Part shown: positions 388 through 32,505 of the stretch, in pieces
How the letters are laid out: every line of letters starts with the position of its first letter
How positions within the stretch are numbered: the stretch's first letter is position 1
From: Loktanella sp. D2R18
GTDB lineage: Bacteria; Pseudomonadota; Alphaproteobacteria; Rhodobacterales; Rhodobacteraceae
Direction of reading: 5' to 3'
Assembly (NCBI RefSeq): GCF_003318235.1
Contig: NZ_QOCG01000030.1
Span: 62,001-126,000 of the forward strand
Length of the DNA: 64,000 nt
Position numbers and translations under genes: made by a program
Notes under the pieces: model-generated
Told to the model about the DNA's origin: nothing
What the model saw: the letters and a program-made list of their open reading frames with translations, nothing else
Databases searched by the model: none

Positions 388-1325
388 GCCCCACAACGGT
401 TGATATTTTGCTGCTGGCCTTTGGCAGTTTTGGCATTCTGATTGGGCTCACATTTATAGGTGAAGTCCTGCGCGCCCGCCAAACCCCTGGCACGCTAAAC
501 CCTGTGCTTGAAACATTCATGACCCGCATCCAAAGCTGGTGGGGCATGGTCGCATTTGTCGGCGGCGCGCTTCTAATGGGAAAATTCGGGGTGATGGTGC
601 TGTTCGCATTTTGCTCATTCGCGGCATTGCGCGAATTTCTGACGCTGACGGCCAAAGCACAGGCTGACCACAAATCGCTCGCGCTCGCATTTTTCGTGGT
701 GCTGCCGTTGCAATATGTCTTTGTCGGCATGGGCTGGACCGGAATGTATACCGTTTTCATTCCGGTTTACGCGTTTTTACTTCTGCCAATCATGTCAGCA
801 TTGCGCGGCAATGCTGATCGGTTTCTTGTGCGCGTGGCCGAAACCCAATGGGCGCTGATGATTGCGGTTTTTTGCGTCAGCCACGTACCCGCATTGATCA
901 ATCTAGACCTAGGACAAAGCAGCGACCGTTCCGTCCTAATGATCGCCTTTTTGGTCATGGTCGTGCAGTTTGGTGATTTGCTCGAATATTTCTTTGGGCG
1001 TCGGATCGGGCGTCACAAAATCGCCCCCGGGCTGTCGCCTAAAACCCGCGAAGGTGTGCTCTGCGGTGTCATTTCCGCAATGTGTATCGGCGCGTTGCTG
1101 CATTGGATCACCCCATTTGGTATCTTAGGTGCAGCGGGCATGGCGGCGATCGCATCGTTTGTAGGCATGTTAGGCAGTCTTGTGTTTGCCGCCATCAAAC
1201 GCGACCGCGGCGTCAAGGATTGGTCACATCTGATCCCCGGCCAAGGCGGGTTTGTTGATCAATTGGACAGCGTGATTTTTGCCGCTCCGATCTTTTATCA
1301 TCTGACCGCATATTTCTATGGGTGA
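384..1325 (+). CDS. Phosphatidate cytidylyltransferase, CdsA/YnbB-like
   Basis: 313-residue integral membrane protein with about eight hydrophobic segments. The C-terminal part has the CdsA signature region, with an acidic residue pair followed by LSPKTREG (residues about 214-221), like the SPKKTWEG element of CDP-diglyceride synthases. The family makes CDP-diacylglycerol from phosphatidate and CTP. It overlaps the acyltransferase gene by 4 bases, as in acyltransferase/CdsA paralogue pairs, so it may be a second copy and not the housekeeping cdsA usually found near uppS and dxr. It ends tail to tail with the minus-strand glycosyltransferase gene, overlapping it by 10 bases. Confidence 0.85.
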   Translation: MSPTTVDILLLAFGSFGILIGLTFIGEVLRARQTPGTLNPVLETFMTRIQSWWGMVAFVGGALLMGKFGVMVLFAFCSFAALREFLTLTAKAQADHKSLALAFFVVLPLQYVFVGMGWTGMYTVFIPVYAFLLLPIMSALRGNADRFLVRVAETQWALMIAVFCVSHVPALINLDLGQSSDRSVLMIAFLVMVVQFGDLLEYFFGRRIGRHKIAPGLSPKTREGVLCGVISAMCIGALLHWITPFGILGAAGMAAIASFVGMLGSLVFAAIKRDRGVKDWSHLIPGQGGFVDQLDSVIFAAPIFYHLTAYFYG

Positions 1326-2062
1326 CGCAAAAACTGCGGCAGTTTCGATAAGTTCTTTGCAACCAACGTGCCTGCCCCGCCGATACGGTGTCGGCGGATT
1401 GCACGGTAATCTTCGCGACTTTTACGGATGAGCAGTTTGAGCGAGCCATTGCTGACCCCGCCGACCTGCATCTGCACCATCACTTGCGGCAAATAGGCCA
1501 ACCGCACATCTGCTGACAGATAGCGCAACATCGCCTCGTAATCGCCGGAAATACGAAACCTGGCGTCATAGGCTCCCATATTTTCAAACACTTGACGGCG
1601 CAGATACAGCGTTGGGTGCGGCGGCATCCACCCCCATTTCAGGCGGGTATTACAATAGGGCCCCGCCGTCCAATGCCGCACCACCCGGCCCGACCCATCT
1701 GCCGCCACATATTGCAAATCACCGTAAACGCCATCGATCGCCGGATCCGCAAGCGCCTTGGCCACAGCCGCCAGCACATTCGGCCCCGCGAGCTGATCAT
1801 CAGCATGCAGCACCCCCACGACATCCCCCGTTACGCGCGCAATCCCTGCGTTGATTGCTTCGTAAATCCCACCATCAGGGGCCGAAACAACTTTAGGGGT
1901 GATGCGGCGCTTTGCCCATAGAATGTCTAAAGTGCCATCGGTCGATCCGCCATCTTGCACCAGGTGTTCGATGTCAGGGTAGGTCTGCTGCGCAAGGCTA
2001 TCGAGCATCCGTGACAAGGTCTGCGCGCCAGTCATCACGGCTGTCACGACCGATATCTTCAT
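1316..2062 (-). CDS. Family 2 glycosyltransferase (WcaA-like), last gene of the EPS operon
   Basis: 248 residues with a GT-A fold start: MKISVVTAVMTG, then QDGGSTDGT (nucleotide binding) and a HADD acidic motif (about residue 86), the DXD-like metal site. No membrane span is evident, so it probably works at the cytoplasmic face on a lipid-linked oligosaccharide. Its start overlaps the stop of the upstream glycosyltransferase gene by 4 bases. It is the most distal gene of a seven-gene minus-strand polysaccharide operon running from 7722. The sugar donor and acceptor cannot be told from sequence. Confidence 0.88.
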   Translation of the reverse strand: MKISVVTAVMTGAQTLSRMLDSLAQQTYPDIEHLVQDGGSTDGTLDILWAKRRITPKVVSAPDGGIYEAINAGIARVTGDVVGVLHADDQLAGPNVLAAVAKALADPAIDGVYGDLQYVAADGSGRVVRHWTAGPYCNTRLKWGWMPPHPTLYLRRQVFENMGAYDARFRISGDYEAMLRYLSADVRLAYLPQVMVQMQVGGVSNGSLKLLIRKSREDYRAIRRHRIGGAGTLVAKNLSKLPQFLRHP

Positions 2063-2961
2063 GACGTCCCCGCCCCAAGATCAATGCCGAGCGCCGCCTG
2101 AATTGCGGCCTTGGGATCATCTCCTGTGATCGTCATATGGCGGCGAACCTCGACTAGTTTTGCGTCGACCAAATAGCGATACCAAAACCCTTGCAGCACA
2201 TGAAATGCGCGGGCTTGCCGCCCGTCCAAAAAACCAAGCCGCAGGATATACCGGTAAAAGAAATACAAACCTGCACGCAACCCACCCGGCAAACGCCCGT
2301 AAATCCGATCTTTAATCCAGCGCTTCACCGCTGCCTGTTTTCCTCCGCGCAATGTCCCGATGGTGTCTTGCGGCATAAAGCGATGCTTGCGGTTCAAGAT
2401 ATCGACGACCTCGCGGCTGGCATATGCATTGTGTTTGGCGATCCACCAATCAAGGTTTTTACGGTTGTCGTCGATGATCAAGCCCGGCAATGATTCCGTA
2501 GGCCCTGACACCACGATATGCTCATCCATCCACCGGTTTTCACAATGCCCTTTCCCATTGCGAAACAACCGCAGCACGCGGATTGGAAACACCCCGCCCC
2601 AGCGCACAGGCTGGCCCAGAAAATGCATCGCACGCCCGACATAAACGCCATCCACATCCGGCAGCCCCGCGCTGATTTGGGCAGCCAGTTCCGCAGTGAC
2701 CACCTCATCCGCATCAAGGCGTAGCACCCAGCCCGGCGCATTAGATAGTTGCTGTAGCGCCCAGTTAAACTGCGTCGCATAATTGGTCCAAGCATGGCAC
2801 AATACCTCTGCCCCAGCTTCACGCGCCAATTCCACCGTATTATCTGTCGACCCGCTATCGACAACGATAATCTTTGTCGCAATCGCCTGCACCGATGCAA
2901 TTGCCCGCACGATGTGCAGGCTTTCGTCTTTGGTTAAGATAATGACGGTGAGCGGGGTCAT
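2059..2961 (-). CDS. Family 2 glycosyltransferase, WaaE/KdtX-like
   Basis: 300 residues when started at the ATG at 2961, which overlaps the previous gene's stop as ATGA; an open frame further upstream to 3102 only shadows that gene. The N-terminus has LTKDES, then VDSGSTDNT and LRLDADE (DXD motif, about residue 88), the hallmarks of the WaaE/KdtX branch of GT2 enzymes. The C-terminal third carries hydrophobic and aromatic stretches (YFFYRYILRLG) that may touch the membrane. It lies within the EPS operon and probably adds one sugar of the repeat unit. Confidence 0.87.
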   Translation of the reverse strand: MTPLTVIILTKDESLHIVRAIASVQAIATKIIVVDSGSTDNTVELAREAGAEVLCHAWTNYATQFNWALQQLSNAPGWVLRLDADEVVTAELAAQISAGLPDVDGVYVGRAMHFLGQPVRWGGVFPIRVLRLFRNGKGHCENRWMDEHIVVSGPTESLPGLIIDDNRKNLDWWIAKHNAYASREVVDILNRKHRFMPQDTIGTLRGGKQAAVKRWIKDRIYGRLPGGLRAGLYFFYRYILRLGFLDGRQARAFHVLQGFWYRYLVDAKLVEVRRHMTITGDDPKAAIQAALGIDLGAGTS

Positions 2962-3500
2962 TTCATTGGCCTGATTTGCAAGGGGTTTCCCACTCCTATA
3001 TGGCCCGTCGGCAAATTTTTCATGGCCACGGCCCGCGCGCCCAAAATGGCCCGCGCGCCAATCCGCACCCCCGGCCCGACAAAGGCGTCCGCGCAAACCC
3101 AAACGTCATCATCTATCCAAATTTTCGGGGTGACCAAGGGGCGCTGCGGCTGACGCCAATCATGGCTGCCCGCACATAGATGCGCATATTGCGAGACCGT
3201 CGCACGTGCACCGATGTGAATCTCACCCAAAGCATACAGAATGGCGTGCGCACCAACAGCCGCCTGATCGTCGATCCGCAGATGCCAAGGCATGGTGATC
3301 CGCACGCTTGGGTAAATATGCACGCAGCGCCCGATCTGCGCCCCAAAGACCCGCAAAAGCCAAACCCGCCATGCCCAAAGCGGCCGGGGGCTCCACCGAA
3401 ACAACGGCCAGACCAGCACCCATATCACGCGGCGCAGCTGGGTGGTAAATCCGTATTTTTGCGCGCTGCGATTTGCGCTGACGTCAACATGGGTCATCAT
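2958..3500 (-). CDS. WcaF-type hexapeptide-repeat acetyltransferase
   Basis: 180 residues from the ATG at 3500, chosen because it overlaps the upstream stop by 4 bases (ATGA); the longer frame to 3596 lies inside the neighbour. The protein has a left-handed beta-helix built of hexapeptide repeats (for example IGRCVHIYPSVRI, IGARAILGARAV) and the WcaF-like N-terminal WSPRPLWAWR region. This family O-acetylates sugars with acetyl-CoA during colanic-acid-like polysaccharide synthesis. It sits between two glycosyltransferase genes of the EPS operon, consistent with acetylation of the repeat unit. Confidence 0.85.
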   Translation of the reverse strand: MMTHVDVSANRSAQKYGFTTQLRRVIWVLVWPLFRWSPRPLWAWRVWLLRVFGAQIGRCVHIYPSVRITMPWHLRIDDQAAVGAHAILYALGEIHIGARATVSQYAHLCAGSHDWRQPQRPLVTPKIWIDDDVWVCADAFVGPGVRIGARAILGARAVAMKNLPTGHIGVGNPLQIRPMK

Positions 3501-4618
3501 ACGGGCACCGCCGTGGTGCGCCGAGCGGCGACCTCTTGATACAATTCCACAAAACGCGCGGTCATGGCTGTGGATGAAAACTCTTGCTGCATCCACCTGC
3601 GGCCGCGTCCCCCCATCACCCCAAGATCACGCCCCAATAATCCGTTAATTTCTTGTGCTAAATCAGAGGTCTTCAAATCAATACAGGCCCCACACCCGAT
3701 GCTATCAAGCCGCTGCCACGGTGTTTGGGTTGTGGTCAAAACGGGCACGCCGTGGGCCAGCGCTTCGGCAATGGCGATGCCAAAGTTTTCGGAATGGCTA
3801 GGCAGCACAAATAGGTCAGCATCGGCAAACGCTCGCTCTTTTGCAACGCCATCCGCATGCCCGTGAAAGTGGATGCGTGGGCCACATTCCTGCTTGAGCT
3901 GCGCGATATAGGCGGCATCCCCCGTGCCATAAACATCCAAATGGACATGCGCAGGCAGCCCTGCCATCGCCGCGCACAGCAGGTCCAACCCTTTTTTGGG
4001 ATGCAGCCGCCCCAAAAACAAGAGCCTGCTTGGCCTGCGGGTCGACCGCGGCGCGGCTGGTGGGATCGCGACGCTATTGGGGATCATCACCGTACGTATC
4101 GCCCCCAAGCGCTGCGTGCTTTGGCGCGCCTCTGCGTCGCTGGTCACATGTAGCGTCACATCTGCACCGCGCAAAAATTGCGCCAGATGTTCAAACAGCT
4201 GTTTTGTGTGGCGGCGGGGCGCGTCGGACCAATCAGCGGTGGCTTGCAACGCGCCACGCGGCGACCAGATCAACGGTTTGCCTAGCGCGCGGGCGCAGGC
4301 CAAGGCAGGCAATGTCGGGAAACTATAGGTTCCAGTTAGATGCACGATGTCAGCCCAAGCGACCGCCTGCGGCAAGCGTGCCAACAGCCCCGGCGCAATC
4401 GCATGACCCGCAATCCGGCGCGTATATCTGACCGGATATGGCAGCGGTTCGGGCGTCACACGCGCTTGCCGGTCGGGCCCAGCCGCATCAGTTGTCAGCG
4501 CCTGCAATGCGAACCCCGGCTGCTGTGCAACCCCATCACAGATCGCCTTTGTTGACCAAATGGGGCCACCCCAATAGGTCGCGGGGTAAAAGGACGGGCT
4601 GATATGCAAAATCTTCAT
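3497..4618 (-). CDS. Family 4 glycosyltransferase
   Basis: 373 residues with two Rossmann-like domains (GT-B). The N-terminal domain opens with MKILHISPSFYPATYWGGP. The C-terminal domain has LLFLGRLHPKKGLDLL and the EX7E-like donor site in PSHSENFGIAIAEALAHG (about residues 283-300). It is a retaining glycosyltransferase of the GT4 group using a nucleotide sugar. Its start overlaps the preceding acyltransferase stop by 4 bases and its stop overlaps the WcaF-like gene, so it belongs to the same operon. Substrate unknown. Confidence 0.88.
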   Translation of the reverse strand: MKILHISPSFYPATYWGGPIWSTKAICDGVAQQPGFALQALTTDAAGPDRQARVTPEPLPYPVRYTRRIAGHAIAPGLLARLPQAVAWADIVHLTGTYSFPTLPALACARALGKPLIWSPRGALQATADWSDAPRRHTKQLFEHLAQFLRGADVTLHVTSDAEARQSTQRLGAIRTVMIPNSVAIPPAAPRSTRRPSRLLFLGRLHPKKGLDLLCAAMAGLPAHVHLDVYGTGDAAYIAQLKQECGPRIHFHGHADGVAKERAFADADLFVLPSHSENFGIAIAEALAHGVPVLTTTQTPWQRLDSIGCGACIDLKTSDLAQEINGLLGRDLGVMGGRGRRWMQQEFSSTAMTARFVELYQEVAARRTTAVPV

Positions 4619-5199
4619 TCTGCTGCCTGCGCCATTGGAAGCCGCTGCCCGATCACACGGGCCGGATTACCTGCGACCACGGTATTTGCAGCCACATTTG
4701 TGGCCACCACCGCACCGGCACCGATCACCGCGCCGCGCCCAATCTGGGTACATTGCGGCAAGATCACTGCCCGCATCCCAATCCAAACATCGGCACCAAT
4801 TTCCTTGGCGCGCGGCTGTGGAGGGGAGTGCGGGTCAAGCCCATGGTCATGTGTATAGATCACCGCATCTTCGGAAATCATAGATCCATCGCCAATACGC
4901 AACCCGCCGGTGATGTCCAAATGCACGTTGCGGTTCACCTGCACTTGATCGCCGATATGCAGGCTTGTGCCCGACACTTCGGAGGAGGCGTTGCAGCCTT
5001 TCCAAAAATAGCAGTTCTTGCCAACCCGGACGCTGCGCGGGTCGGCGAAGCGAACACCGGGCTGAAACCGCGATCCTTTGCCAACAGATTTTAACGTCGC
5101 GACGTGTATCTGTGTCGCGCAGATGATCCCGAAGCGGCGATAAACTGCGCCCGCTGCGCGGCCAAACCAATAAGCTGCAATCAATGGGTTAAGCCGCAT
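4615..5199 (-). CDS. Hexapeptide-repeat acyltransferase of the EPS operon
   Basis: 194 residues from the ATG at 5199, which overlaps the polymerase stop by 11 bases; an alternative start at 5256 lies deeper inside that gene. Hexapeptide repeats run through the second half (IGDGSMISEDAVIY, IGADVWIGMRAVI, IGRGAVIGAGAVV), and the loop TYDHD-like segment YTHDHGLDPHSPPQ holds the usual catalytic histidine of maltose/galactoside-type O-acetyltransferases. It is the second sugar O-acyltransferase in the locus, so the polymer is probably modified at two positions or on two sugars. Confidence 0.82.
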   Translation of the reverse strand: MRLNPLIAAYWFGRAAGAVYRRFGIICATQIHVATLKSVGKGSRFQPGVRFADPRSVRVGKNCYFWKGCNASSEVSGTSLHIGDQVQVNRNVHLDITGGLRIGDGSMISEDAVIYTHDHGLDPHSPPQPRAKEIGADVWIGMRAVILPQCTQIGRGAVIGAGAVVATNVAANTVVAGNPARVIGQRLPMAQAAE

Positions 5200-6532
5200 A
5201 ACACACCCCAGATTTGGGCAGAAGGCAGGGCCTGAAGCAGGGCACAAACAGCGCAAGCATCAAGAGCAACAAGACAGATTGCGCCGCCGCCCCGACGATA
5301 AATGCGCTAAACGACGACTGCAGCGTGGCCTGTACGAAGGGATAAAATAGCATCGGATACAGCAGGTATGATCCGTGGCGCAAAACCTGCGTGGCGTTTA
5401 GCAGAATTTCTTCACCCTTGCGGTAAATCGCCCCCAACACAGGCGCGACCCCCAACCCGAACCAACCAAAGTTGATAAACGCCTCACCCGGGCCGGTCAC
5501 GTTAAACGCGCCGCCGGTGAAAGTTTGCATAATTTCGCGCTTGAAATAGACGCCCAAATCAATGGCAGGCTTTTCCAGCCAAATCGCGCGTGGCACCCAG
5601 CCGAACAGCCACCACGTATAACTTTCACCATGAAGAAGCTGTTCAAATTCAGTGCGGTCCGTGACCATCACTGCAACGTTCAAATCCAGAAAATAGGTCG
5701 ATCCGACAATCTGTTGAAACAATGACACCTGCGCCCCGTGAAACCGCAATTGGGTCATGTAGGCCGATACCACCATCACCGCAAATAGGCCCAAAATGGT
5801 TAAGAAAACCGTCCGCGCGGCGATCTGCCCGCCCAGTATCGCATAGGTCGCAAACGCGTAGACAAGCAGCTCTATCAGCTCAAATCTGTCGCCAGAAATC
5901 ACAGCAATGCCAATAAGCAAAACACCCACAATGGCGGCCTGCGCTATCACCCGGCGCGCGCGCAGCACGATGCCATTGGCGAGCAGCAGCACAAAGGCAA
6001 ATTTGGGGATGATAAAGAACGTCTTAATCCCCGCCAGTGTGGCCCCCACGCCTGCGTCATTCACATTGATCTGCTTTGTCGCGTTCAACCCGGCAAGCAA
6101 TGCGGGATCAAACACTCCGACCCCGCGCGCGCGCAAGACAAGCGCAAATGTTATTGCCGCAAATGTAAATGCCCCGGTAAAAAGCCAGTCGCGGCGGCAG
6201 ATTTGTGATGCAATTAAACGCGCGGCTTCTTGAGACTGCGCATGGCTTACGGGACGAGCAAAGGCGATGTATCCGACGCAAATCAGTATGATAAACAGGC
6301 TCAGGTAAAGCGCACCACGCAATTGGGCTGAGGGCGAGGGCGTAAACTGTTGAAAGAACGCCAATTCGGGGACGACCGCATAGGCTGCTGCCTTGAGGAA
6401 GAAACCAAGCCCGCAAAAATATCCTAGAAAATACATCGGCGACACATAGGGAGCACAGCCCATCCGCTGCCCGATGACCAAAGGCAGCAGGGTGCAGATC
6501 AGCGCGAGGGCGATGATCAGGACGGTTTCCAT
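5189..6532 (-). CDS. Oligosaccharide repeat-unit polymerase-like membrane protein (Wzy/O-antigen polymerase type)
   Basis: 447 residues from the ATG at 6532, which overlaps the flippase gene by 16 bases. About ten or more transmembrane segments are visible, with a large loop (around residues 270-360) rich in W, F and charged residues, the common Wzy-like topology. Wzy proteins are poorly conserved, so the call rests on topology, length and position between a flippase and glycosyltransferases. It would join lipid-linked repeat units at the periplasmic face in a Wzx/Wzy pathway. Confidence 0.72.
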   Translation of the reverse strand: METVLIIALALICTLLPLVIGQRMGCAPYVSPMYFLGYFCGLGFFLKAAAYAVVPELAFFQQFTPSPSAQLRGALYLSLFIILICVGYIAFARPVSHAQSQEAARLIASQICRRDWLFTGAFTFAAITFALVLRARGVGVFDPALLAGLNATKQINVNDAGVGATLAGIKTFFIIPKFAFVLLLANGIVLRARRVIAQAAIVGVLLIGIAVISGDRFELIELLVYAFATYAILGGQIAARTVFLTILGLFAVMVVSAYMTQLRFHGAQVSLFQQIVGSTYFLDLNVAVMVTDRTEFEQLLHGESYTWWLFGWVPRAIWLEKPAIDLGVYFKREIMQTFTGGAFNVTGPGEAFINFGWFGLGVAPVLGAIYRKGEEILLNATQVLRHGSYLLYPMLFYPFVQATLQSSFSAFIVGAAAQSVLLLLMLALFVPCFRPCLLPKSGVCYAA

Positions 6533-7722
6533 CGGCGTCCCAATACGAATGCGGAGGTGTCGACGCCGACCCGCTGCCAAATCATCCACCACAATAGCGC
6601 GCTGCCGCATGTGATCGCGCCGACATAGGCCAAAGCATTTTCAAGCGGGCCCGCAACAAATGTGGCCAAACCAAGATAGGCAAGCAAGCCCGCTGCGCGC
6701 GAAATGGCAGATAGGTGCGCCATGCCACAAAGTGTGGCGACGGTGAAACCTGATGCAAACACAACCTGCAAAACTGCACCGCAAAGAAGTACCGCAAAGA
6801 CCGCAGGCGCCTCCGCGGGCAAGAAAGGCAGCGCCATAATCCCCAAAAGAAACAAAGCAAACCCCGGTAAAAGCGCAACCCGGTTGCCCAGCTTACTAGC
6901 CGCACGCAACCCAACAGTATCGCGCGCTGCATAACTTTTTGACACCGCATTTGCGCTGACCCAAGTCGCCACACTGACAGGAAGCGCCCCCAGGTTGGCC
7001 ACACGGCGCAACACCACGTAGGTCCCAATTTGTGCTGGCGAAAGTATCGCCCCGCCGACAATAATATCGACCTGCGACAACCCAACCCCCAAGACCGATG
7101 TCCCCCAAAGCGAGAGCGATACGACCGGTGTGGGGTGGGACGCATTGATAATTTCGCCCCGGTGCCGGCGTTGCCAAGCCCAGATTATGGCAACAATCGC
7201 AAAGCCCCCCAACCAGACCACGGCAAACGATAAGTACTGATCTGTCGTCAATGCGGCCAAGCCAAGACCAACTTGCGGGCCGCAATCCCGGAGTACCATC
7301 GACATGTTGACGCTGCCTAAGGCGCGCATCAGACTTGCCAGACAGGTCAACAGGTTGATGGCGAACGCCGCCCAAAAAATGGAAGCCCAAGGTAGCAAAG
7401 GTAAAAACAGCGGGCAAATCATAACGCCGATTACGGCCACTGCTGCGGGCAAAGTGACCATATGCAACAGCAGACCTGCGGGCGACACCCCGCCACCATC
7501 CGTTAAGGCACGCAACAAAAGAAGCGGGCCGCCCAATGACACGACCGGCGCGGCAACAAGAGCAATCCCCCAAACGACCGCAAGTGACCCAAATGCATCG
7601 AACCCAAGCCAGTAGGCCAACCAAATCATAACGCCGAAATTGACTGCAACAATCGCGGCACGCGCGGCCATTGGTAATGTGGCCTTTGCACTGATCAGCC
7701 TGCTCAACTTTGTCCCAAACAT
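6517..7722 (-). CDS. Oligosaccharide flippase (Wzx/MOP superfamily), first gene of the EPS operon
   Basis: 401 residues with about twelve hydrophobic segments and the MOP-type start (FGTKLSRLI, then an ARAAIVAVNFGVMIW first span). It would flip undecaprenyl-linked repeat units to the periplasm. It is the first gene of the minus-strand operon of seven genes down to 1316, each overlapping or abutting the next. The divergent gene on the other side encodes a Wzz-like protein, and a CtrA-type box lies in the intergenic region (7786-7801), 64 bases upstream of this start. Confidence 0.8.
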   Translation of the reverse strand: MFGTKLSRLISAKATLPMAARAAIVAVNFGVMIWLAYWLGFDAFGSLAVVWGIALVAAPVVSLGGPLLLLRALTDGGGVSPAGLLLHMVTLPAAVAVIGVMICPLFLPLLPWASIFWAAFAINLLTCLASLMRALGSVNMSMVLRDCGPQVGLGLAALTTDQYLSFAVVWLGGFAIVAIIWAWQRRHRGEIINASHPTPVVSLSLWGTSVLGVGLSQVDIIVGGAILSPAQIGTYVVLRRVANLGALPVSVATWVSANAVSKSYAARDTVGLRAASKLGNRVALLPGFALFLLGIMALPFLPAEAPAVFAVLLCGAVLQVVFASGFTVATLCGMAHLSAISRAAGLLAYLGLATFVAGPLENALAYVGAITCGSALLWWMIWQRVGVDTSAFVLGRRWKPS

Positions 7723-7785
7723 ATACGCACCCCATCGCGGCCCGTTAACTTCGCCGTCCTCTCGCTTAGTCGTCGTTCATTGAGA

Positions 7786-7801
7786 TTAATTTTCGGTTAA
7801 C
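7786..7801. promoter_or_regulatory. CtrA-type box (TTAA-N7-TTAAC) in the EPS divergent promoter
   Basis: The bases read TTAA, seven others, then TTAAC, an exact match to the full CtrA binding consensus known in Alphaproteobacteria. The site lies between the divergent flippase (start 7722) and Wzz-like (start 7855) genes and could serve either. A second exact box lies upstream of the sugar transferase/ghsA/ghsB unit. Binding itself is inferred. Confidence 0.55.
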
Positions 7802-7854
7802 CCTGATGTGATCAATTGGTGCCTATCGTTGCAGGACAAAAGGCGCTGACATTC

Positions 7855-9666
7855 ATGACGAATCGTAGTTTTGACAGGGTCGCGGGCCGGGCTGATCTTC
7901 GCTTAGGTGCCTATCAACCCGTTGCGCCGATTGACGTCGCGGGCCTGTTGCTTGGCCTTTGGCGCGGAAAATGGATCATTATTTTTACGGTGATCTGCGC
8001 CGTTGTCCTGGCGGGATATTATGCGTTTGCGCGCGCAGTTCCTTCCTATGCGGCGACCGCAACGATTAAACTCGAACTACCGGATCCACAGCTTAGTGAT
8101 CCCGCATTTTCGGAAATCAGCCCGACGCGCCTAAACACCGAAGCGGCCGTTTTGCAGTCCCGGCATATTCTTGAACAGGTTATCGACACGCTGGAACTTG
8201 AAAGCGATCCCGAGTTCAATCGCTACCTGTTGCCCGCCACCCCCTGGTCGGTCAACGGAATCTGTGATCGTGCCCGCGCGCTGATCTTGGGGCAACCCGC
8301 GCCCGAAATTTCACAAAGCGATCTGCGCGACAAGACGATTGAAAACCTGTCAAACATGCTGCGGACAGGACCAGAACGCGGCACCTATCTATTGACGGTA
8401 ACCGCCACGACAACAAGCCCGCTCAAATCCCAAACCATCGCCAACGCAGTCGCCCAAGCATATCTCGCGGATCAGCTGCGCGCCCGTGTTGCCGAAACAG
8501 ATGCCTCTGTCGCACGGTTAACGCAGCGTGTTTCACAATTGCAGCAAGACTTGCAGGCCAAAGAAGCCGCGATCAATGCAATGCTCTCGGCCGGGCAGAT
8601 GACGGATGAAACCCTTTTTGATCGGCTCAGCCATCAGGTCAACGATGCCAATCAGCGTCTGAACGAAGCCCAAAACTCCCCCGATAATGCCACGCAAATC
8701 GCCGCATTACAGGCGCTTCAAGATCGGCTAGGTGCGGAGTTAGCAATACAATCCGAAGGGCTTATCCAACTGCAACAGTTGCGCCGCGAAGCACAAAGTA
8801 CCCGCGTGCTTTATACAACGCTTTTAGCGCAATTGCAGCAGGTCCAAATTGCCCATGACAGCGACACGCCAACGGCCCGCGTCCTATCTGCGGCCACACC
8901 GGGGCGCTATGTGGCGCCGCGCAAGACCTATATCCTCGCGATTGCCGCATTGCTGGGGGCGGCTTTGGGTACTGCATATGTGCTTTTGCAAAGGCAGCGC
9001 CATATCCAAAGCGATACCCTTGCGGGTCAGGCGGATTGGCCTGTTGTCGCGCATCTGCCCGCGACTGCTGCCCCCAAATTCGACGGATCTGCGCTGCCTT
9101 GCCCAGCGCAAAACGCAGCAAACCAATTGCGCACAGCCGTTCTATCAAGCAAATCAGCCGCCCCCCCGCAGGTCATTATGGTTACATCGTGCCGGGCCGA
9201 CGATGGGCATACCCAAGCCGCAGATGCTCTGGCGCAATCGCTTGCGCGGCTCGAACGATCAGTGCTGCTAATCGCGGCTGAGAGCATGCCGCAATCAAGC
9301 CCGTGCAATAACACCCCGACCATCGGGGATATCATTGCATCAGGCGACCCAATGGCAACGCCAGACCATAAAGAAGGGATCACACGCATTCGCGCTTACG
9401 CCCCCTCAGAATGCCCGGCGGACGTGTTCACTAGGCCCACATTCATACAGTTCTTGAACGCTGCGCGCAGCCTCTACGACCATGTCATCATTGTTGCTGC
9501 GCCCATTTGTCGGTTTCCCGACGCGGCTATAATCGCCCCACAAAGCGACGCCGTGGTTATCACTCTGCGAGACCGCAAAACGCGCACCCGCGATTGGGAA
9601 ACTGCGCAAACCGCGCTTCGCCAAATTGCGGTGACACAACAGCCGTTGATTGTGCTCACCAACTGA
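7855..9666 (+). CDS. Wzz/BY-kinase-like polysaccharide co-polymerase with degenerate kinase domain
   Basis: 603 residues from the ATG at 7855 (AGG about 11 bases upstream); a TTG at 7816 is a weaker alternative. Layout: a membrane span at about 41-60, a periplasmic coiled-coil region at about 190-330, a second span at about 365-385, and a cytoplasmic Rossmann-like domain to the end. This is the usual order of Wzz-BYK (ExoP/Wzc) proteins that set chain length and drive polymerisation. The ATP site is broken: the Walker A region reads RADDGHT with no GKT, the A' strand reads LLIAAES without aspartates, and the Walker B strand VIIVAAP lacks its Asp. No terminal Tyr cluster is seen. It is probably a structural co-polymerase, not an active kinase. 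Confidence 0.8.
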   Translation: MTNRSFDRVAGRADLRLGAYQPVAPIDVAGLLLGLWRGKWIIIFTVICAVVLAGYYAFARAVPSYAATATIKLELPDPQLSDPAFSEISPTRLNTEAAVLQSRHILEQVIDTLELESDPEFNRYLLPATPWSVNGICDRARALILGQPAPEISQSDLRDKTIENLSNMLRTGPERGTYLLTVTATTTSPLKSQTIANAVAQAYLADQLRARVAETDASVARLTQRVSQLQQDLQAKEAAINAMLSAGQMTDETLFDRLSHQVNDANQRLNEAQNSPDNATQIAALQALQDRLGAELAIQSEGLIQLQQLRREAQSTRVLYTTLLAQLQQVQIAHDSDTPTARVLSAATPGRYVAPRKTYILAIAALLGAALGTAYVLLQRQRHIQSDTLAGQADWPVVAHLPATAAPKFDGSALPCPAQNAANQLRTAVLSSKSAAPPQVIMVTSCRADDGHTQAADALAQSLARLERSVLLIAAESMPQSSPCNNTPTIGDIIASGDPMATPDHKEGITRIRAYAPSECPADVFTRPTFIQFLNAARSLYDHVIIVAAPICRFPDAAIIAPQSDAVVITLRDRKTRTRDWETAQTALRQIAVTQQPLIVLTN

Positions 9667-9668
9667 AT

Positions 9669-11267
9669 TCAGTCAAACGTATAGAGCCGCCCATCAACAT
9701 GCACACGCGCACCGCCATCGCGGGTGACCGGGCGAATGGTTTGCGACAATGCCCCTGCCTCTACGAGCGGAATGGTAAACATGATCCCCTTGTCAAACGA
9801 TCCTTCACCAAATTCTGCAAATGAGATATCCGTCAGGGTCGCAAATGCGCCCACAGACCAGCCATTTTCGAACCGCCGCGAAAGGGTCAGCGTTCCGCCC
9901 CAGTCTTTGGCCAAATAGCGCCCTGCATCCACCTGCACATGATAACCGCCGCCCGCGTCCCAGTAAAATGATCCGTGCCCGCTCAGCACTTGATAATCGC
10001 GCAGCCGAAAATCGCTTTCGTAGCCGCGCTGTTGCAACGCATTCAATTCGACGCCTAAGGCAACCGCGCTACCGGGCGGTTGCCAAAGTGCCTCAGCAGA
10101 TGCGCCCGCATACATTTCTTCAAGCAAACCGAGCGTCAATCGCGTGGCGACGTTCGGATACGGCTGTTCATACCAAGCAAGCGTTAGGCTATTTAGGTCC
10201 AGATCACCCTCACGGCTGTATTTGGCAAAATCACTGCGGACATGTGGCAGCACACTATCGGATTCCCGGGTTATTCTATGCAAGTTGCCCGCAATATGTT
10301 GGCGCAATTCCCCACCCGCAGTGACACTCGGAGCAATCCGCCATTCCCCTGTCAACGCGAGACCAAAATCGGCGCGCAGCGGCGCATCAGGGTCAAACAG
10401 GCTTGGTGCAATATAGGGTTTAATTTGCCAGTCAAAGGGCCCCGTATGTTGCACCGAAGGCGGGCGGGTAACAGGTGCTGATTTTAGATTGTATCCATAA
10501 CTCGCGCTAAGGCCAAATTCGTTGCCGTAAAGATATTGCGCCGATAGCTGAAGATCAGGGCGCGGCCAATAGATCAGCCCAAGGTTCCATGGGCTTTGAT
10601 GGTCGAACGCGCTGCCATTTTCAGCCCTATACCCATCAGATGAATATTCAAGAATGACCTTCACATCATCATGCGGCTGGTATGTTAGCCCACCAAACAC
10701 CGCTGTATCACCATGAAACAGCGCAGCGGTGGTGACAGCCCCACCCTCTCCGATTGGGGCATCAGGGCGATCGCCCAGCGCACCCCCAAGCGGATGGGGA
10801 AAACCGCCGTGGCTTGCCAACCGTCCCCAGCCGAGCCCAAGCGTGCCGCTGATCTGAGGCGAGAGTGCTTTGGTTGCCACAATATATTCACCCGCATAGA
10901 TCCCCGTGCCGACAAAATCATTCACCCCAATCGCAACTGCAGGCCGGTGCGTCGTTTCGTCAAACAGTCGATAATGCAGCCCAAAACTGCGGTCAAAAAT
11001 CTGATCGTAGGGGCGGCCATCGGCATCATGCAGGTTCCTTAACTGGGCATACCGTAAGCTGACTGACATCCGATCAGACAGCTGAAATGTCGCGCTGCCC
11101 CGCGTTCGGCTGGCAAACGTCGCAACGGAAAAAGCCAGCTCTGCATCGGGGGCAGAGCTGGCCACCGACATGTCGATCAGACCCGGCATACCGTAAGTAT
11201 TATAGTGTTGCGCCTGTCCGGCGATTGGCCAAGTGGCCATCAAAACCCATAAAACAAAATACCGCAT
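9669..11267 (-). CDS. YjbH-like outer-membrane exopolysaccharide protein
   Basis: 532 residues with a signal peptide (MRYFVLWVLMATWPIAGQAQ, cleavage after AQA) and then the YjbH-type start YNTYGMPGLIDMSVASSAPDAEL. The rest alternates polar and aromatic residues as expected for a beta-barrel (many strands ending in aromatic residues). YjbH proteins are outer-membrane components tied to exopolysaccharide production; many are near 700 residues, so this is a short version. It follows ghsB by 34 bases on the same strand and is probably the last gene of the sugar transferase-ghsA-ghsB unit. It ends tail to tail with the Wzz-like gene. Confidence 0.75.
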   Translation of the reverse strand: MRYFVLWVLMATWPIAGQAQHYNTYGMPGLIDMSVASSAPDAELAFSVATFASRTRGSATFQLSDRMSVSLRYAQLRNLHDADGRPYDQIFDRSFGLHYRLFDETTHRPAVAIGVNDFVGTGIYAGEYIVATKALSPQISGTLGLGWGRLASHGGFPHPLGGALGDRPDAPIGEGGAVTTAALFHGDTAVFGGLTYQPHDDVKVILEYSSDGYRAENGSAFDHQSPWNLGLIYWPRPDLQLSAQYLYGNEFGLSASYGYNLKSAPVTRPPSVQHTGPFDWQIKPYIAPSLFDPDAPLRADFGLALTGEWRIAPSVTAGGELRQHIAGNLHRITRESDSVLPHVRSDFAKYSREGDLDLNSLTLAWYEQPYPNVATRLTLGLLEEMYAGASAEALWQPPGSAVALGVELNALQQRGYESDFRLRDYQVLSGHGSFYWDAGGGYHVQVDAGRYLAKDWGGTLTLSRRFENGWSVGAFATLTDISFAEFGEGSFDKGIMFTIPLVEAGALSQTIRPVTRDGGARVHVDGRLYTFD

Positions 11268-11301
11268 AAGCCACCGCTTTCACCAATGGCGATGGCCTAC
11301 C

Positions 11302-12888
11302 CTAGGGCACGCGCAGAACATGCCGGCTGTAAAAGCCCAAGGCATCCCCCGTTCCAAAAGAAAACGAGCCCGCATTTACATAGGTCTTTGCCATCCAATC
11401 CAACCCGCCGCTTGCGGTGCTGGCGTCCAGATTAGGCCGCAAAATAGTGTCAAAACCATTAAGCACGTTGCCCGTCACAGCCGTTGACCCGGCTTCGATG
11501 CCATATGAGACTGAATTTGAGCCCAATTCCCCGGTGGTCCCAACCCGCGAAACACCCGCGATATCAATATTCGCAGGGTTCACGCCATCGTAGACATGCA
11601 GGTCAATGGCCGTGGTCCCGGCTGGTAAAACCTGTTCGAAGACAAGGTTTTGGCTTTCACCGTCCCAATGTACAAATGGCGCCATTCCAACATAGGCCCA
11701 CGCGAAACTTGCTTGGGCCCCCGTGCCAATCACGGTGACATCATGGCGGGCCTCGCCGGGCGTGATACGACGGAGCAATTGACATTCACCGATATCGCCG
11801 CCTTCGGCCCGCTGCCATGTCGTGTTTTCAGTGATTGTGACAGTAGTGCCGACTGACAGTCCGTTTGTACCCTGCGCAGGTGTCCATACCGCACCATCAA
11901 GCAAGATGCTCCGCGAGATCAGGCTTTCATTGCCGTGCGTTTGCCCACCCAAAATAGTGGTATTACCCGCGATCGAAAATTCGGCCGCATATTCACGTTC
12001 TGACGCATAATCAATTGCAACGAACTTTGGATAGCTCGGGCGATTATCTGCGCGCCAATCCAACGCCCCATCTGAAGCAATGCCCCCGGAGTGCGAAGGT
12101 GCGGTAATGCCGCTGGTCCCCGTCGCGCGCACCGTATAAAAAACCCCGCCGTGCTGGACTTCATCGCCCATTGTATAGGCCGTTGATGCCATCCAAGAAG
12201 GCGGTAAAACACGCGGATCGTCTAAGCTGCCTGTGATCCCAACGGCCTCGATCATCAAGTTATCGCCGCCGGGGCTGGCTGCACCGCCATTGGAAAGGCT
12301 CACCACATGGCTACCGGTCAAGCCGCTGGCGACTTTGACTGCCTGCCTGCGGTCCAAATCGACGGCCGTGTAAGTCGAGAACGCTTTAAACCCCAGCCCT
12401 GCCGGGTCAACAATTTCATTGACTAAGCTTTGTTCTCCGTCAATGTCCACGCGACAATAACCGCCGCCTGTGCGCCCGGTGAAATAGACCCAAAGATCAT
12501 AGGGGGCCGCACGGTCTACCGTCACCGATGCTGTAGATGTCTGCGACGAAGTACTGATCGCGCGATTGCCTGTGTAGCTTCCCTGCAAGCCTGAACCAGA
12601 GGATTGCAACTGCGACCATGATCCGGTCAGTACAAGATCGCCAATCGGGTAGATATTGTGCAGCTCTGTCAGTAACGTTTCACGCCATGAATAACGGTTG
12701 CCCGGATCGGTTGCATCCAATCGCATCGCGGCGGCGACACCTAGGCCGACCTCGGTCCAGATTGTCAGCCCGCCTGCGGGCGCCTGTGCAAGTGCCACAT
12801 GCGCCCCCTCTCCGCGTGCAAATAACCCCGCCAGGGGCTGTGAAGGTGCGGATGCGGTAGAAGCGGGCGAAAGTTCAAGACCGATCAA
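11302..12888 (-). CDS. ghsB: GTA head-spike fibre protein, GhsB-like
   Basis: 528 residues, acidic, without signal peptide or membrane span, rich in G, S and T like a fibre or receptor-binding protein. Residues about 231-280 (SWMASTAYTMGDEV..GGVFYTVRATGTSG) look like a small carbohydrate-binding fold (ChtBD/CBM5-like) used in phage tail fibres. The start is TTG at 12888, one base beyond the ghsA stop, implying translational coupling; no ATG or GTG is available in frame. The assignment rests on the adjacent ghsA-like gene and the EPS location: in Rhodobacter capsulatus ghsA and ghsB encode GTA head spikes that bind the capsule. The individual sequence is too divergent for me to recognise with certainty. 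Confidence 0.65.
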   Translation of the reverse strand: MIGLELSPASTASAPSQPLAGLFARGEGAHVALAQAPAGGLTIWTEVGLGVAAAMRLDATDPGNRYSWRETLLTELHNIYPIGDLVLTGSWSQLQSSGSGLQGSYTGNRAISTSSQTSTASVTVDRAAPYDLWVYFTGRTGGGYCRVDIDGEQSLVNEIVDPAGLGFKAFSTYTAVDLDRRQAVKVASGLTGSHVVSLSNGGAASPGGDNLMIEAVGITGSLDDPRVLPPSWMASTAYTMGDEVQHGGVFYTVRATGTSGITAPSHSGGIASDGALDWRADNRPSYPKFVAIDYASEREYAAEFSIAGNTTILGGQTHGNESLISRSILLDGAVWTPAQGTNGLSVGTTVTITENTTWQRAEGGDIGECQLLRRITPGEARHDVTVIGTGAQASFAWAYVGMAPFVHWDGESQNLVFEQVLPAGTTAIDLHVYDGVNPANIDIAGVSRVGTTGELGSNSVSYGIEAGSTAVTGNVLNGFDTILRPNLDASTASGGLDWMAKTYVNAGSFSFGTGDALGFYSRHVLRVP

Positions 12889-12889
12889 G

Positions 12890-13147
12890 TCAGTACCACG
12901 CGATCAACTGGGCGGTTGTGCCCGTGGCCAGTACCCGCAGGGGCCGGATGCTCAGCACCGCGCCCGCTGTCAGATCATAGCTAACGACCACGCCGTCTTT
13001 GTCCTGCAGTACCGCCGTACCGCCCGCGTTCACAAAAATCGCGCGGGGGCGCACTGGCAGGTCAGCCGCGTCATCCGGGGAGATTGGGAAATGTGACACC
13101 GCAGGCGATGTCAGGTTGACGTAATCAGAATCAAATGGGTCAGACAT
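12890..13147 (-). CDS. ghsA: GTA spike base protein, GhsA (RCAP_rcc01079) family
   Basis: 85 residues, starting MSDPFDSDYVNLTSPAVSHFP and ending in an RVLATGTTA segment. These, with the DDAADLPVRPRAIFVNAGGTAVL middle, are the conserved parts of the small spike base protein first defined in R. capsulatus GTA. It forms the base on which the spike fibre sits. It is followed immediately by the fibre-like gene and preceded on the same strand by a sugar transferase gene with a CtrA-type box upstream. The main GTA head-tail cluster is not in this window, as expected for this separate locus. Confidence 0.78.
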   Translation of the reverse strand: MSDPFDSDYVNLTSPAVSHFPISPDDAADLPVRPRAIFVNAGGTAVLQDKDGVVVSYDLTAGAVLSIRPLRVLATGTTAQLIAWY

Positions 13148-13237
13148 GGAATGCTCCGGTTAATAAGACCCAACCATGCCTAGACAGGGAACCTTACCAA
13201 GCCGTGCGCCCACCGCACGTTGCGTGCCATAACGGCG

Positions 13238-13876
13238 CTACGCCCCGCGTCGTGCCGCGACCACCGCCAAGGTGCGCCAAGCAATGCGCAGATCAAAGCC
13301 AAAGCTCGCATGATCCAGATAGTACAGATCTGCCGCGACACGGCGGCGCATCGCATCTGCATCGTCGATATAGCCCAATTCGGTTTGTGCGTAGCCGCTG
13401 ATCCCTGGCAACACAGCTTGGCGTGCCGCATAGCCAGGGATCACATTTATATAGACCCGCGCATGATCATAACAGTCAGGGCGCGGCCCGATCAGGCTCA
13501 TCTCAGCGCGCAAAACATTGATGATCTGCGGCAGCTCATCAATGCGGGAAGACCTTAGAAACCGCCCCAAGGGCGTCACGCGATCCGTATCGAGCGGGTC
13601 AAAAGCGCCGCGTGTCTGATCCGCCACGCGCATTGTCCGGAACTTAATCATCGTAAAAGGTTTACAGCCCTGCCCCATGCGTTCTTGCACAAAAAAAAGT
13701 GGCCCCGCGTTAAGAAATGGGTTCAGCAATAAAAGGACCCCCGCGCAAACGGCAAGCGGCCCCAAAAGCAGCAACGCACCCGTGCGGTCGAAGATGAATT
13801 TTGTGCGGGGAATAGCGGCTCTATTAGGCCGATCAGCCCTTGCAACAAAGGCTGTGTCATTGTGAAAATCGAACAT
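13238..13876 (-). CDS. Undecaprenyl-phosphate sugar transferase (priming glycosyltransferase, ExoY/WcaJ C-terminal type)
   Basis: 212 residues with one hydrophobic segment (about 31-52) and the conserved bacterial sugar transferase blocks: KFRTM (about 79-83), the TPLGRFLRSSRIDELPQ block, and EMSLIGPRP (about 128-136), then PGISGYAQ. The enzyme transfers a sugar-1-phosphate to undecaprenyl phosphate and so starts the repeat unit made by the neighbouring operon. It is the first gene of the minus-strand unit containing ghsA, ghsB and probably the yjbH-like gene. A CtrA-type box lies 66 bases upstream of its ATG. Confidence 0.88.
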   Translation of the reverse strand: MFDFHNDTAFVARADRPNRAAIPRTKFIFDRTGALLLLGPLAVCAGVLLLLNPFLNAGPLFFVQERMGQGCKPFTMIKFRTMRVADQTRGAFDPLDTDRVTPLGRFLRSSRIDELPQIINVLRAEMSLIGPRPDCYDHARVYINVIPGYAARQAVLPGISGYAQTELGYIDDADAMRRRVAADLYYLDHASFGFDLRIAWRTLAVVAARRGA

Positions 13877-14109
13877 CGCGGCTCACCATTTACCAAGTGC
13901 AGTTTTGCAACCGCTTCGAGAGTAAACCTGCGGGTTCATAGTTAAGCATTGTTTAATGCCAGCCGCAAAAACTGTGTGTTTTGTTTGGGGCGAGGCGAAA
14001 TACAGGTCTTTTCTGTTAACCACCCCGCATATTGGGCTCTAGAGGGCGCAATCAGTCCTTAACCTTTATGCGTTTAATTCTAATGGTCGCCCCAAGCCAT
14101 GGAGCCCCA
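13877..14109. promoter_or_regulatory. Divergent promoter region with CtrA-type box at 13942-13956
   Basis: This 233-base intergenic stretch separates the minus-strand sugar transferase/ghs unit from a plus-strand secreted-protein gene. At 13942-13956 it reads TTAA, seven bases, TTAA, a full CtrA-type box. CtrA controls GTA genes in Rhodobacterales, so the site fits co-control of head spikes and the polysaccharide they bind. No convincing -35/-10 pair could be assigned by eye. Confidence 0.55.
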
Positions 14110-14565
14110 ATGCCCAAATTCTTGCATGCCGTTCAATTCATAAAGACCGCGATTGTCGTCTTGGTGATTGGCGGCGGGTCCGTTCAGGCACAAGACCGCG
14201 CGGCTTTGATCATCCAAAATGATCGCGGGGGCGCAATTGGGGAACGTCTGCTGGCGGTTGCGCAGGCCAATGCCGACCGCACCCGTATCGAACTGCGCGG
14301 CCGTATTTGTTATTCATCCTGTACTTTGTATCTGGGGGCCGACAATCTTTGCATCAGCGCCGACACCGTGTTTGGGTTTCATGGCCCCAGCCGCCACGGG
14401 CGCCCCTTGCCACCAGATGAATTTGAACATTGGTCACAGGTAATGGCCGCACAATACCGTGTCCCGCTGCGCGAATGGTTCTTGGAAACGGCGCGACACC
14501 GGATCACGGGATATTACCGATTGTCCGGTACCCAGCTGATCAACATGGGCTACGCCCCCTGCTAG
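14110..14565 (+). CDS. Secreted ClpP-like protein of unknown function
   Basis: 151 residues from the ATG at 14110, preceded by GGAG eight bases upstream; earlier in-frame starts lack a ribosome site. An N-terminal signal peptide (hydrophobic about 10-24, ending VQAQ) points to the periplasm. The middle segment RGRICYSSCTLYLGADNLCISADTVFGFHGPS resembles the crotonase/ClpP-like fold of predicted periplasmic proteins in which a Ser follows a Cys in a turn and the FGFHG strand comes after. Protease activity is not established. It stands alone, facing away from the EPS unit, and overlaps the next gene tail to tail. Confidence 0.65.
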   Translation: MPKFLHAVQFIKTAIVVLVIGGGSVQAQDRAALIIQNDRGGAIGERLLAVAQANADRTRIELRGRICYSSCTLYLGADNLCISADTVFGFHGPSRHGRPLPPDEFEHWSQVMAAQYRVPLREWFLETARHRITGYYRLSGTQLINMGYAPC

Positions 14566-21636: not shown

Positions 21637-22209
21637 AGGGAGTCCTAGGCTTCAGCGGGTAAAGAGAAACAAAGTACTAGGTCATGGAAACTTGCGTTTC
21701 ATTGGAACAGTTTATCCAACAATGTCAAGGCGCTCATGCCGGACAAGCGGTGCAACCCACCGCAACCATGCCCTTATTTTTCAACGCCACGCCACCGTTT
21801 CGCGGCAAATCCCTGTCCGAACAATGCCCTAGCCAGAAGCAAAAGGTCATAAATTAAGGTGTTCCGCCGTGCCCGGCTGCCGTAACGTCATATTTGATGG
21901 GCATCAAAATTCTTACAGATATCAATGGGGCAAAATATTTAATGTTTTCTATACATCCGCGCGATCACCGGGGGCTAATCTAGAACTAGAACCGCAATGT
22001 TTACATTCTCTGCGAAAGAATCAGCGCAGTTTCGTGACGCCGGATATCTAAAGACCGTCTTGAAAAATTAAAAATCGTTTAAATACAATAATTTATTTCC
22101 GAATAGGCATTCCAGAACCTGCGCGCGGACACCCAGAAACCGCCTTAGTTAGACCGAAATCCGACTTGCTACGGTAATCCCTCCTAAAATTAGTGGTGTT
22201 CAAAAGTAG
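21637..22209. other. Gene-free, AT-richer stretch at the probable left edge of an accessory island
   Basis: No supported gene was found in these 573 bases. Base composition becomes more AT-rich from about 21840. The short open frames do not resemble proteins and lack ribosome sites. The stretch separates core-type genes from the truncated DUF3800 gene and the phage remnants, so it may contain the old left junction of the island; I found no copy of the tRNA-Arg 3' end here. Confidence 0.4.
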
Positions 22210-32478: not shown

Positions 32479-32505
32479 GTTAACCTTTATTAATGAAAGG
32501 TTAAC
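32479..32505 (+). promoter_or_regulatory. Perfect inverted repeat enclosing the ribosome site (and a CtrA-type box)
   Basis: GTTAACCTTT (32479-32488) and AAAGGTTAAC (32496-32505) pair perfectly over 10 bases with a 7-base loop. The AAAGG in the 3' arm is the best Shine-Dalgarno element for the GTG start at 32508, so folding would hide it. The same bases include TTAA-N7-TTAAC at 32490-32505, an exact CtrA-type box. Either reading suggests control of the downstream secreted protein gene. Confidence 0.5.

Follow-up and report, generated by a model that had tools for sequence, protein, structure and literature searches.

Predicted gene transfer agent head-spike genes within a Wzy-type polysaccharide locus of a Yoonia-like roseobacter, and the closeness of spike-base and polysaccharide genes across the family

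The head spike of the gene transfer agent (GTA) of Rhodobacter capsulatus, RcGTA, is reported to bind the capsule, and the spike and capsule genes are reported to be adjacent and co-regulated (PMC10218006). This spike comprises a base, GhsA (rcc01079), a pentamer of which is reported to bind the hydrophobic start of a fibre, GhsB (rcc01080) (PMC7296036); going by locus numbers, the fibre gene precedes the capsule genes rcc01081-01086 (PMC10218006). Here we describe a related pair, ghsA and ghsB, in Loktanella sp. D2R18, within a stretch of 64,000 nucleotides (the window; positions 62001-126000 of its contig, in the 3.65-Mb genome of this Yoonia-like roseobacter), together with the surroundings of spike-base genes throughout the family. 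The pair resembles that of RcGTA in the family of the base, the base-fibre order, the hydrophobic fibre start and the adjacent polysaccharide genes, but differs from it in setting and in fibre. First, it follows a priming sugar transferase inside a Wzy-type polysaccharide locus. Second, the fibre body has no BLASTP similarity to the R. capsulatus SP108 fibre over the 187 N-terminal residues compared.

That a spike lies beside capsule genes is already published for one species, R. capsulatus. In the open-licence literature that we searched, mostly in the form of listings, we found no description of linked spike and polysaccharide genes in species other than R. capsulatus, and earlier papers may report part of it. 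As far as these searches show, what is new is the Wzy-type locus with its priming transferase, a box conserved in the Yoonia group, a different fibre and, above all, the family-wide linkage. Taken as a whole, the sequence evidence makes it probable that the spike of the strain's GTA binds the polysaccharide made by the surrounding locus, under a CtrA-type box. In the mechanism that we propose, ghsA and ghsB would encode the head spike of the strain's GTA, and, on the model of RcGTA, a GhsA pentamer on the capsid vertices would hold the hydrophobic start of one GhsB fibre. We infer that the spike is incorporated into particles and that the fibre grips this very polysaccharide, by which the particle would first attach to coat-bearing sister cells. 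The transferase, ghsA and ghsB would most likely form one transcription unit under the box, such that CtrA would turn on receptor and ligand together.

The spike pair

The features central to this proposal are listed here in the order of transcription, which continues from ghsB to a YjbH-family gene.

13942-13956, no strand: TTAA-N7-TTAA, putative CtrA-type box ahead of transferase-ghsA-ghsB, with conserved upstream half-sites
13238-13876, minus strand: priming sugar-phosphate transferase, 212 amino acids (Pfam Bac_transf, 167.5 bits)
12890-13147, minus strand: ghsA, spike base, 85 amino acids (NF048002)
11302-12888, minus strand: ghsB, predicted head-spike fibre, 528 amino acids, with a TTG start one base past the ghsA stop codon

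A preliminary description of this DNA, made from the letters alone, had recognised the spike-base pattern and placed the pair inside a capsule or exopolysaccharide locus, in a span (11302-13956) that is correct for the fibre, base, transferase and box. Both claims hold: Pfam and NCBIfam place Wzy-type polysaccharide genes around the pair, and the whole locus extends over ~1316-13956. The ghsA product matches the NCBIfam model NF048002 (‘spike base protein, RCAP_Rcc01079 family’) at 91.7 bits, against a cut-off of 28, as well as the tail-fibre family PHROG 12296 (6.7e-21), and a profile of 24 sequences including this product finds the solved Rcc01079 (PDB 6tb9) at 97 bits. It is identical to the SP108 protein in 46 of 82 residues (56%) and is the only spike base in the genome. 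The nearest relatives with species names are in Yoonia maritima (91%) and Y. tamlensis (88%, over 85 residues). For comparisons at close range we used the Yoonia-type loci, that is, the window locus and the twelve nearest spike-base loci (L155-L166, 68-91%; four from Yoonia and eight from uncultured Rhodobacteraceae), and counts out of 13 refer to this set.

The likeness to spike families that the preliminary description had also expected of the fibre is limited to its short start. The ghsB product begins MIGLELSP, with three hydrophobic positions in an alternating pattern, compared to five in RcGTA, and the twelve other Yoonia-type fibres begin M-[IL]-G-[LF]-x-[LI], one of them from a GTG codon. 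The start thus has the alternating hydrophobic residues of a spike fibre, its gene is coupled to ghsA, and it would sit in pockets of the base. A reading frame lies behind ghsA in 153 of 200 loci examined, 76 of which fit a loose hydrophobic motif; for the family survey described below, the frame is present in 85 of 119 loci and the motif in 37 of the 85 (automatic frame choice in both cases). Over 505-506 residues the fibre aligns at 54-78% with those of the twelve other Yoonia-type loci. By BLAST, the survey genes at the fibre position form several clusters, of which the largest covers 9 of 119 loci, and we therefore did not treat likeness of the fibre body to Rcc01080 as defining. Within residues 231-279 there is a CBM_5_12-like stretch (Pfam, residues 232-259, 22.3 bits, below the cut-off of 26.2), and a match to PDB 7eea (E 1.7e-4) is limited to residues 231-355. 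An AlphaFold model based on 11 Yoonia-type rows had a mean pLDDT of 43.9, too poor for a fold search.

Relatives of both proteins occur in phages, which raises the alternative that ghsAB are a prophage tail remnant or a tailocin-like adhesin rather than part of a GTA. Homologues of the base are encoded by phages RcapNL, RcWaterboi and RcapMu (36-44% identity) and by P8625, and a 308-residue stretch of the fibre (residues 131-438) is 31.6% identical (6e-22) to a protein of Pseudoalteromonas phage J2-1. However, those base relatives lie in phage genomes, while Pfam and NCBIfam found no phage structural family, besides ghsA and ghsB, among the 15 neighbouring genes scanned (1316-21636). Moreover, ghsA and ghsB are intact and conserved across the Yoonia group, and the genome contains a GTA cluster. 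We consider this alternative very unlikely.

Spike-base and polysaccharide genes across the family

The survey was based on 296 evenly drawn genomes of the family, from which we took 119 of 128 places with a spike base, in 105 genomes, mostly with ~8 kb on each side and some shortened at contig ends. The polysaccharide profiles were grown from seven window proteins, and are thus seeded from one locus; the controls were 40 random 16.5-kb regions, taken from 40 of the same genomes at least 30 kb away from the spike locus on the same contig. We found a polysaccharide gene within ~8 kb in 72 of the 119 spike-base loci, and at least two such genes in 46, but in none of the 40 random regions. Of the 40 spike loci of these same 40 genomes, 29 were linked to polysaccharide genes, compared to 0 of 40 controls; all 40 matched loci are outside the Yoonia group (survey locus L121 is that of the Yoonia-type genome G261). 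By genome, 70 of 105 carry a polysaccharide-linked spike locus, and 38 of 68 named loci outside the Yoonia group, which partly overlap the survey, are likewise linked. The rate of polysaccharide matches peaks in the first kb before ghsA, at 0.17 per locus, and is 0.05-0.13 out to 8 kb. This closeness across the family suggests that spike and polysaccharide genes are kept together.

The identity of the neighbours varies greatly. At most 11 of the 119 loci have any one neighbour cluster in common, and among the 2556 pairs of linked survey loci 2061 share none; thus the spike genes occupy many different polysaccharide loci. Either repeated placement of the spike genes or their retention while the surrounding locus was replaced would yield this pattern, and we cannot tell which. 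It is also the pattern expected if polysaccharide loci are variable islands that gather accessory genes, among which the spike genes are functionless passengers. The 47 of 119 loci without a polysaccharide gene by these profiles, and the lack of strand bias (the ghsA strand carries 80 of the 162 polysaccharide genes), fit such passengers as well, and our controls were random regions rather than other accessory genes. Nonetheless, 43 of the 119 loci have a polysaccharide gene no more than 1.7 kb from ghsA, the R. capsulatus spike is itself reported to bind capsule, with its genes adjacent and co-regulated (PMC10218006), and the order transferase-ghsA-ghsB is preserved with the box in all 13 Yoonia-type loci while the YjbH gene and outer genes change. 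We therefore regard passengers as an improbable explanation and binding of the local polysaccharide as the better one.

GTA structural genes are seldom nearby: profiles of eight GTA structural proteins match 2 of the 119 survey loci and, outside the Yoonia group, 7 of the 68 named loci. These few loci with matches would fit a phage remnant, as would phage-type genes next to unlinked loci: among the 25 of 117 families listed for 132 neighbour proteins of the 47 unlinked loci were two terminases, one portal and one capsid, together with four epimerases. The families listed also contain three RTX calcium-binding repeat proteins that neighbour ghsA in unlinked loci; one paper refers to an RTX-like protein in the context of RcGTA production (PMC10218006).

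The conserved box and the Yoonia-type loci

The preliminary description had pointed to a CtrA-type box before the unit, and we find TTAA-N7-TTAA upstream of the transferase in every one of the 13 Yoonia-type loci, where the spacer takes ten different sequences. Its far end lies 66-96 bp before the first in-frame start codon of the transferase (80 bp before its first in-frame ATG at the window locus), and in an alignment of the upstream regions of 11 of the 13 loci, 8 of 9 invariant columns are the two half-sites. The box is thus a promoter-region site that is conserved while its flanks diverge. The strict pattern occurs at 32 sites in the genome, compared to 81 for the reversed pattern. The window has four sites, compared to a mean of 0.34 in shuffled sequences, and 0 of 100 shuffles reach four. 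Two of the four are in the two promoter regions of the polysaccharide locus and the others are at 22068-22082 and 32490-32504. The second site in the locus, that before a gene for a 401-amino-acid protein, is found in 11 of the 12 other Yoonia-type loci, and the twelfth, L159, ends short of that place.

Similar boxes are described for CtrA-linked gafA in R. capsulatus and for gafA, competence, flagella and c-di-GMP genes in Dinoroseobacter shibae. Reported CtrA targets include c-di-GMP, motility and GTA genes (PMC6473078, PMC6363796), and the gafA site is usually 65-71 bases before the start codon (PMC6363796), compared to the 66-96 bases found here. Those systems target the GTA activator or uptake genes; the site here is putative and would serve a receptor-plus-spike unit. 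Of 20 other genomic sites examined, 14 are outside called open reading frames, and next to nine of these 20 we identified ten proteins. They are a GGDEF-EAL protein, a chemotaxis receptor, two PAS proteins and the DUF2793 tail fibre, as well as a glycosyltransferase, a GDP-mannose dehydratase, an esterase, an outer-membrane barrel and one protein without a match. We infer that CtrA binds the box.

The remaining features of the locus and its borders are as follows.

14032-14565, plus strand: gene divergent from the transferase across the box, without a Pfam match; has a counterpart in 7 of the 12 other Yoonia-type loci
9669-11267, minus strand: YjbH-family exopolysaccharide protein, 532 amino acids (Pfam YjbH, 535.7 bits)
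7816-9666, plus strand: Wzc/Wzz-like chain-length/kinase protein (Pfam Wzz and GNVR above cut-off, tyrosine kinase models below cut-off)
7786-7800, no strand: second TTAA-N7-TTAA, between the divergent Wzc-like gene and the gene for the 401-amino-acid protein
6517-7722, minus strand: 401-amino-acid protein without a family match in Pfam or NCBIfam
5189-6610, minus strand: oligosaccharide repeat unit polymerase, Wzy-like (TIGR04370, 51.3 bits, cut-off 40)
4615-5256, minus strand: hexapeptide acetyltransferase (family scan)
3497-4618, minus strand: glycosyltransferase, GT4 type (family scan)
2059-3102, minus strand: glycosyltransferase family 2 (family scan)
1316-2062, minus strand: glycosyltransferase family 2 (family scan)

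The plus-strand Wzc/Wzz-like gene is thus divergent from the genes running to 1316, and the gene at 14032-14565 would use the same promoter region as the transferase. Beyond 14915, Pfam and NCBIfam scans found an endonuclease/phosphatase-fold gene, Ugp-type transporter genes and a kinase, and because these begin there we placed the edge of the locus at ~14915.

All 13 Yoonia-type loci retain the transferase, ghsA and ghsB, with the transferase upstream of ghsA, while the YjbH gene, the outer genes and the spacing vary: by tblastn the YjbH gene is matched in 7 of the 12 other loci (L159 again ends short of that place), and the 401-amino-acid gene in 11 of 12. We compared divergence across 45 common pairs from 10 genomes, which are non-independent. 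Mean divergence was 32.5% for the fibre, 32.4% for the transferase, 34.4% for the polymerase and 24.5% for the base; it was 47.3% for the 401-amino-acid protein, 49.6% for the Wzc-like protein and 12.2% for the GTA capsid. The fibre thus keeps the pace of the transferase and polymerase, 2.7 times that of the capsid. This is the comparison of ghsB with exopolysaccharide genes proposed in the preliminary description, and it led us to reject a fibre that evolves faster than the coat genes (32.5% compared to 32.4-49.6%). We also rejected a hypervariable fibre tip within the Yoonia group; invariant residues are found along the whole length, and the last third is less conserved by eye.

The co-evolution of spike and receptor proposed in the preliminary description is favoured only weakly by these data. 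Fibre divergence correlates at 0.91-0.94 with that of the coat genes, but shared descent accounts for most of this, because the capsid correlates equally (0.91). Given the capsid, the partial correlations of the fibre are 0.85 with the 401-amino-acid protein, 0.74 with the polymerase, 0.64 with the Wzc-like protein, 0.62 with the transferase and 0.42 with ghsA. As a sign of fibre-coat co-evolution these values are only suggestive, and physical linkage would yield the same.

The gene transfer agent and the meaning of linkage

A main GTA cluster, which the preliminary description had predicted elsewhere in the genome, is present on a different contig (L135) from the spike genes. The ten proteins scanned in it include terminase, portal, protease, capsid, connector, tail tube, DUF2460, hub and GTA_TIM megatron proteins, and one has no Pfam match. 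Among the 296 genomes, the spike base is found in 110 and GTA_TIM in 263. GTA_TIM is present in 106 of the 110 spike-base genomes, compared to 157 of the 186 without a spike base (Fisher p 0.001); these figures compare two genome lists, and genomes missing from the GTA_TIM list count as lacking it.

In the Yoonia-type genome G298 (L157, and L314 at 8080-10553), the first part of the terminase adjoins the second half of the megatron, with no match to the capsid, yet ghsA, an open ghsB, the transferase and the box are retained; recent loss or an assembly fault could account for this arrangement. In L112 and L124, ghsA lies beside glycosyltransferase genes, with no fibre-like gene directly behind it, and GTA_TIM is not listed for the genome of L124 (G218). 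These cases would fit a spike pair with a role in the cell that makes it, such as polysaccharide binding, unconnected with the GTA. However, only one genome retains the pair together with a reduced cluster, we see no export signal by eye in the ghsA or ghsB products, and GTA_TIM accompanies nearly all spike bases, as given above. We see little chance that this role explains the pair.

DUF2793 is named as the GTA tail fibre (PMC10883770). In L241, the DUF2793 gene (2567-3331) and a GDP-mannose 4,6-dehydratase gene point away from each other, and TTAA-N7-TTAA lies between them (G000:C11:76364-76378). Of 8 other Yoonia-type genomes searched, 5 have the dehydratase gene next to the DUF2793 gene and 3 have a strict box between the two; the dehydratase gene was not found beside DUF2793 in the R. 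capsulatus SP108 stretch.

Several observations weigh against a spike of the strain's GTA that binds the local polysaccharide under CtrA control, in addition to the unlinked loci and the absence of strand bias noted above. By BLASTP the fibre is unlike the initial 187-residue part of the SP108 fibre, and its start carries just three hydrophobic residues of the star pattern. A recognisable spike base is missing from 157 of the 263 GTA_TIM genomes. In the SP108 stretch (10.8 kb, ending inside ghsB), our profiles found no polysaccharide gene, including the 10 kb before ghsA, and there is no strict box. The strict box is also no more frequent than its reversed pattern over the whole 119 survey loci (17 compared to 14); within 300 bp before ghsA it is found in 5 loci compared to 1 for the reversed pattern, or 25 compared to 6 with one mismatch allowed. 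Because the strict box is rare in other survey loci and absent from the SP108 stretch, we consider it to be largely a feature of the Yoonia group. Finally, a gene on the opposite strand lies between the transferase and ghsA in 2 of the 13 Yoonia-type loci (L158 and L166), and thus ghsAB there must have their own promoter or be read through. The intervening frame, of ~250-275 amino acids, contains GDVHGR and GNHE, which we take to be a phosphatase-type motif. The single unit proposed in the preliminary description is likely but interrupted in these two loci, and joint transcription is not general, since only half of the polysaccharide genes share the ghsA strand.

Which cells receive GTA DNA, and how a suicidal trait is kept, are named as open questions (PMC10883770). 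The transferase-ghsA-ghsB part is ~2.6 kb and RcGTA is reported to carry roughly 4.5-kb fragments (PMC9690577); therefore, one GTA particle could carry the genes for receptor and ligand together. It is possible, though we put this forward only tentatively, that the family has a linked recognition cassette that is moved and remodelled as one, with a matching fibre in whichever polysaccharide locus is present, and that this greenbeard-like system sets the partners of DNA exchange. If the spike does bind the local polysaccharide, particle specificity and coat type would be inherited together. Gene exchange would then be confined to cells with the same coat, and the fibre would predict the coat, which provides a testable map. 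If CtrA also turns on receptor and spike together, spike production would extend to every coat-making cell and not just to the few that lyse.

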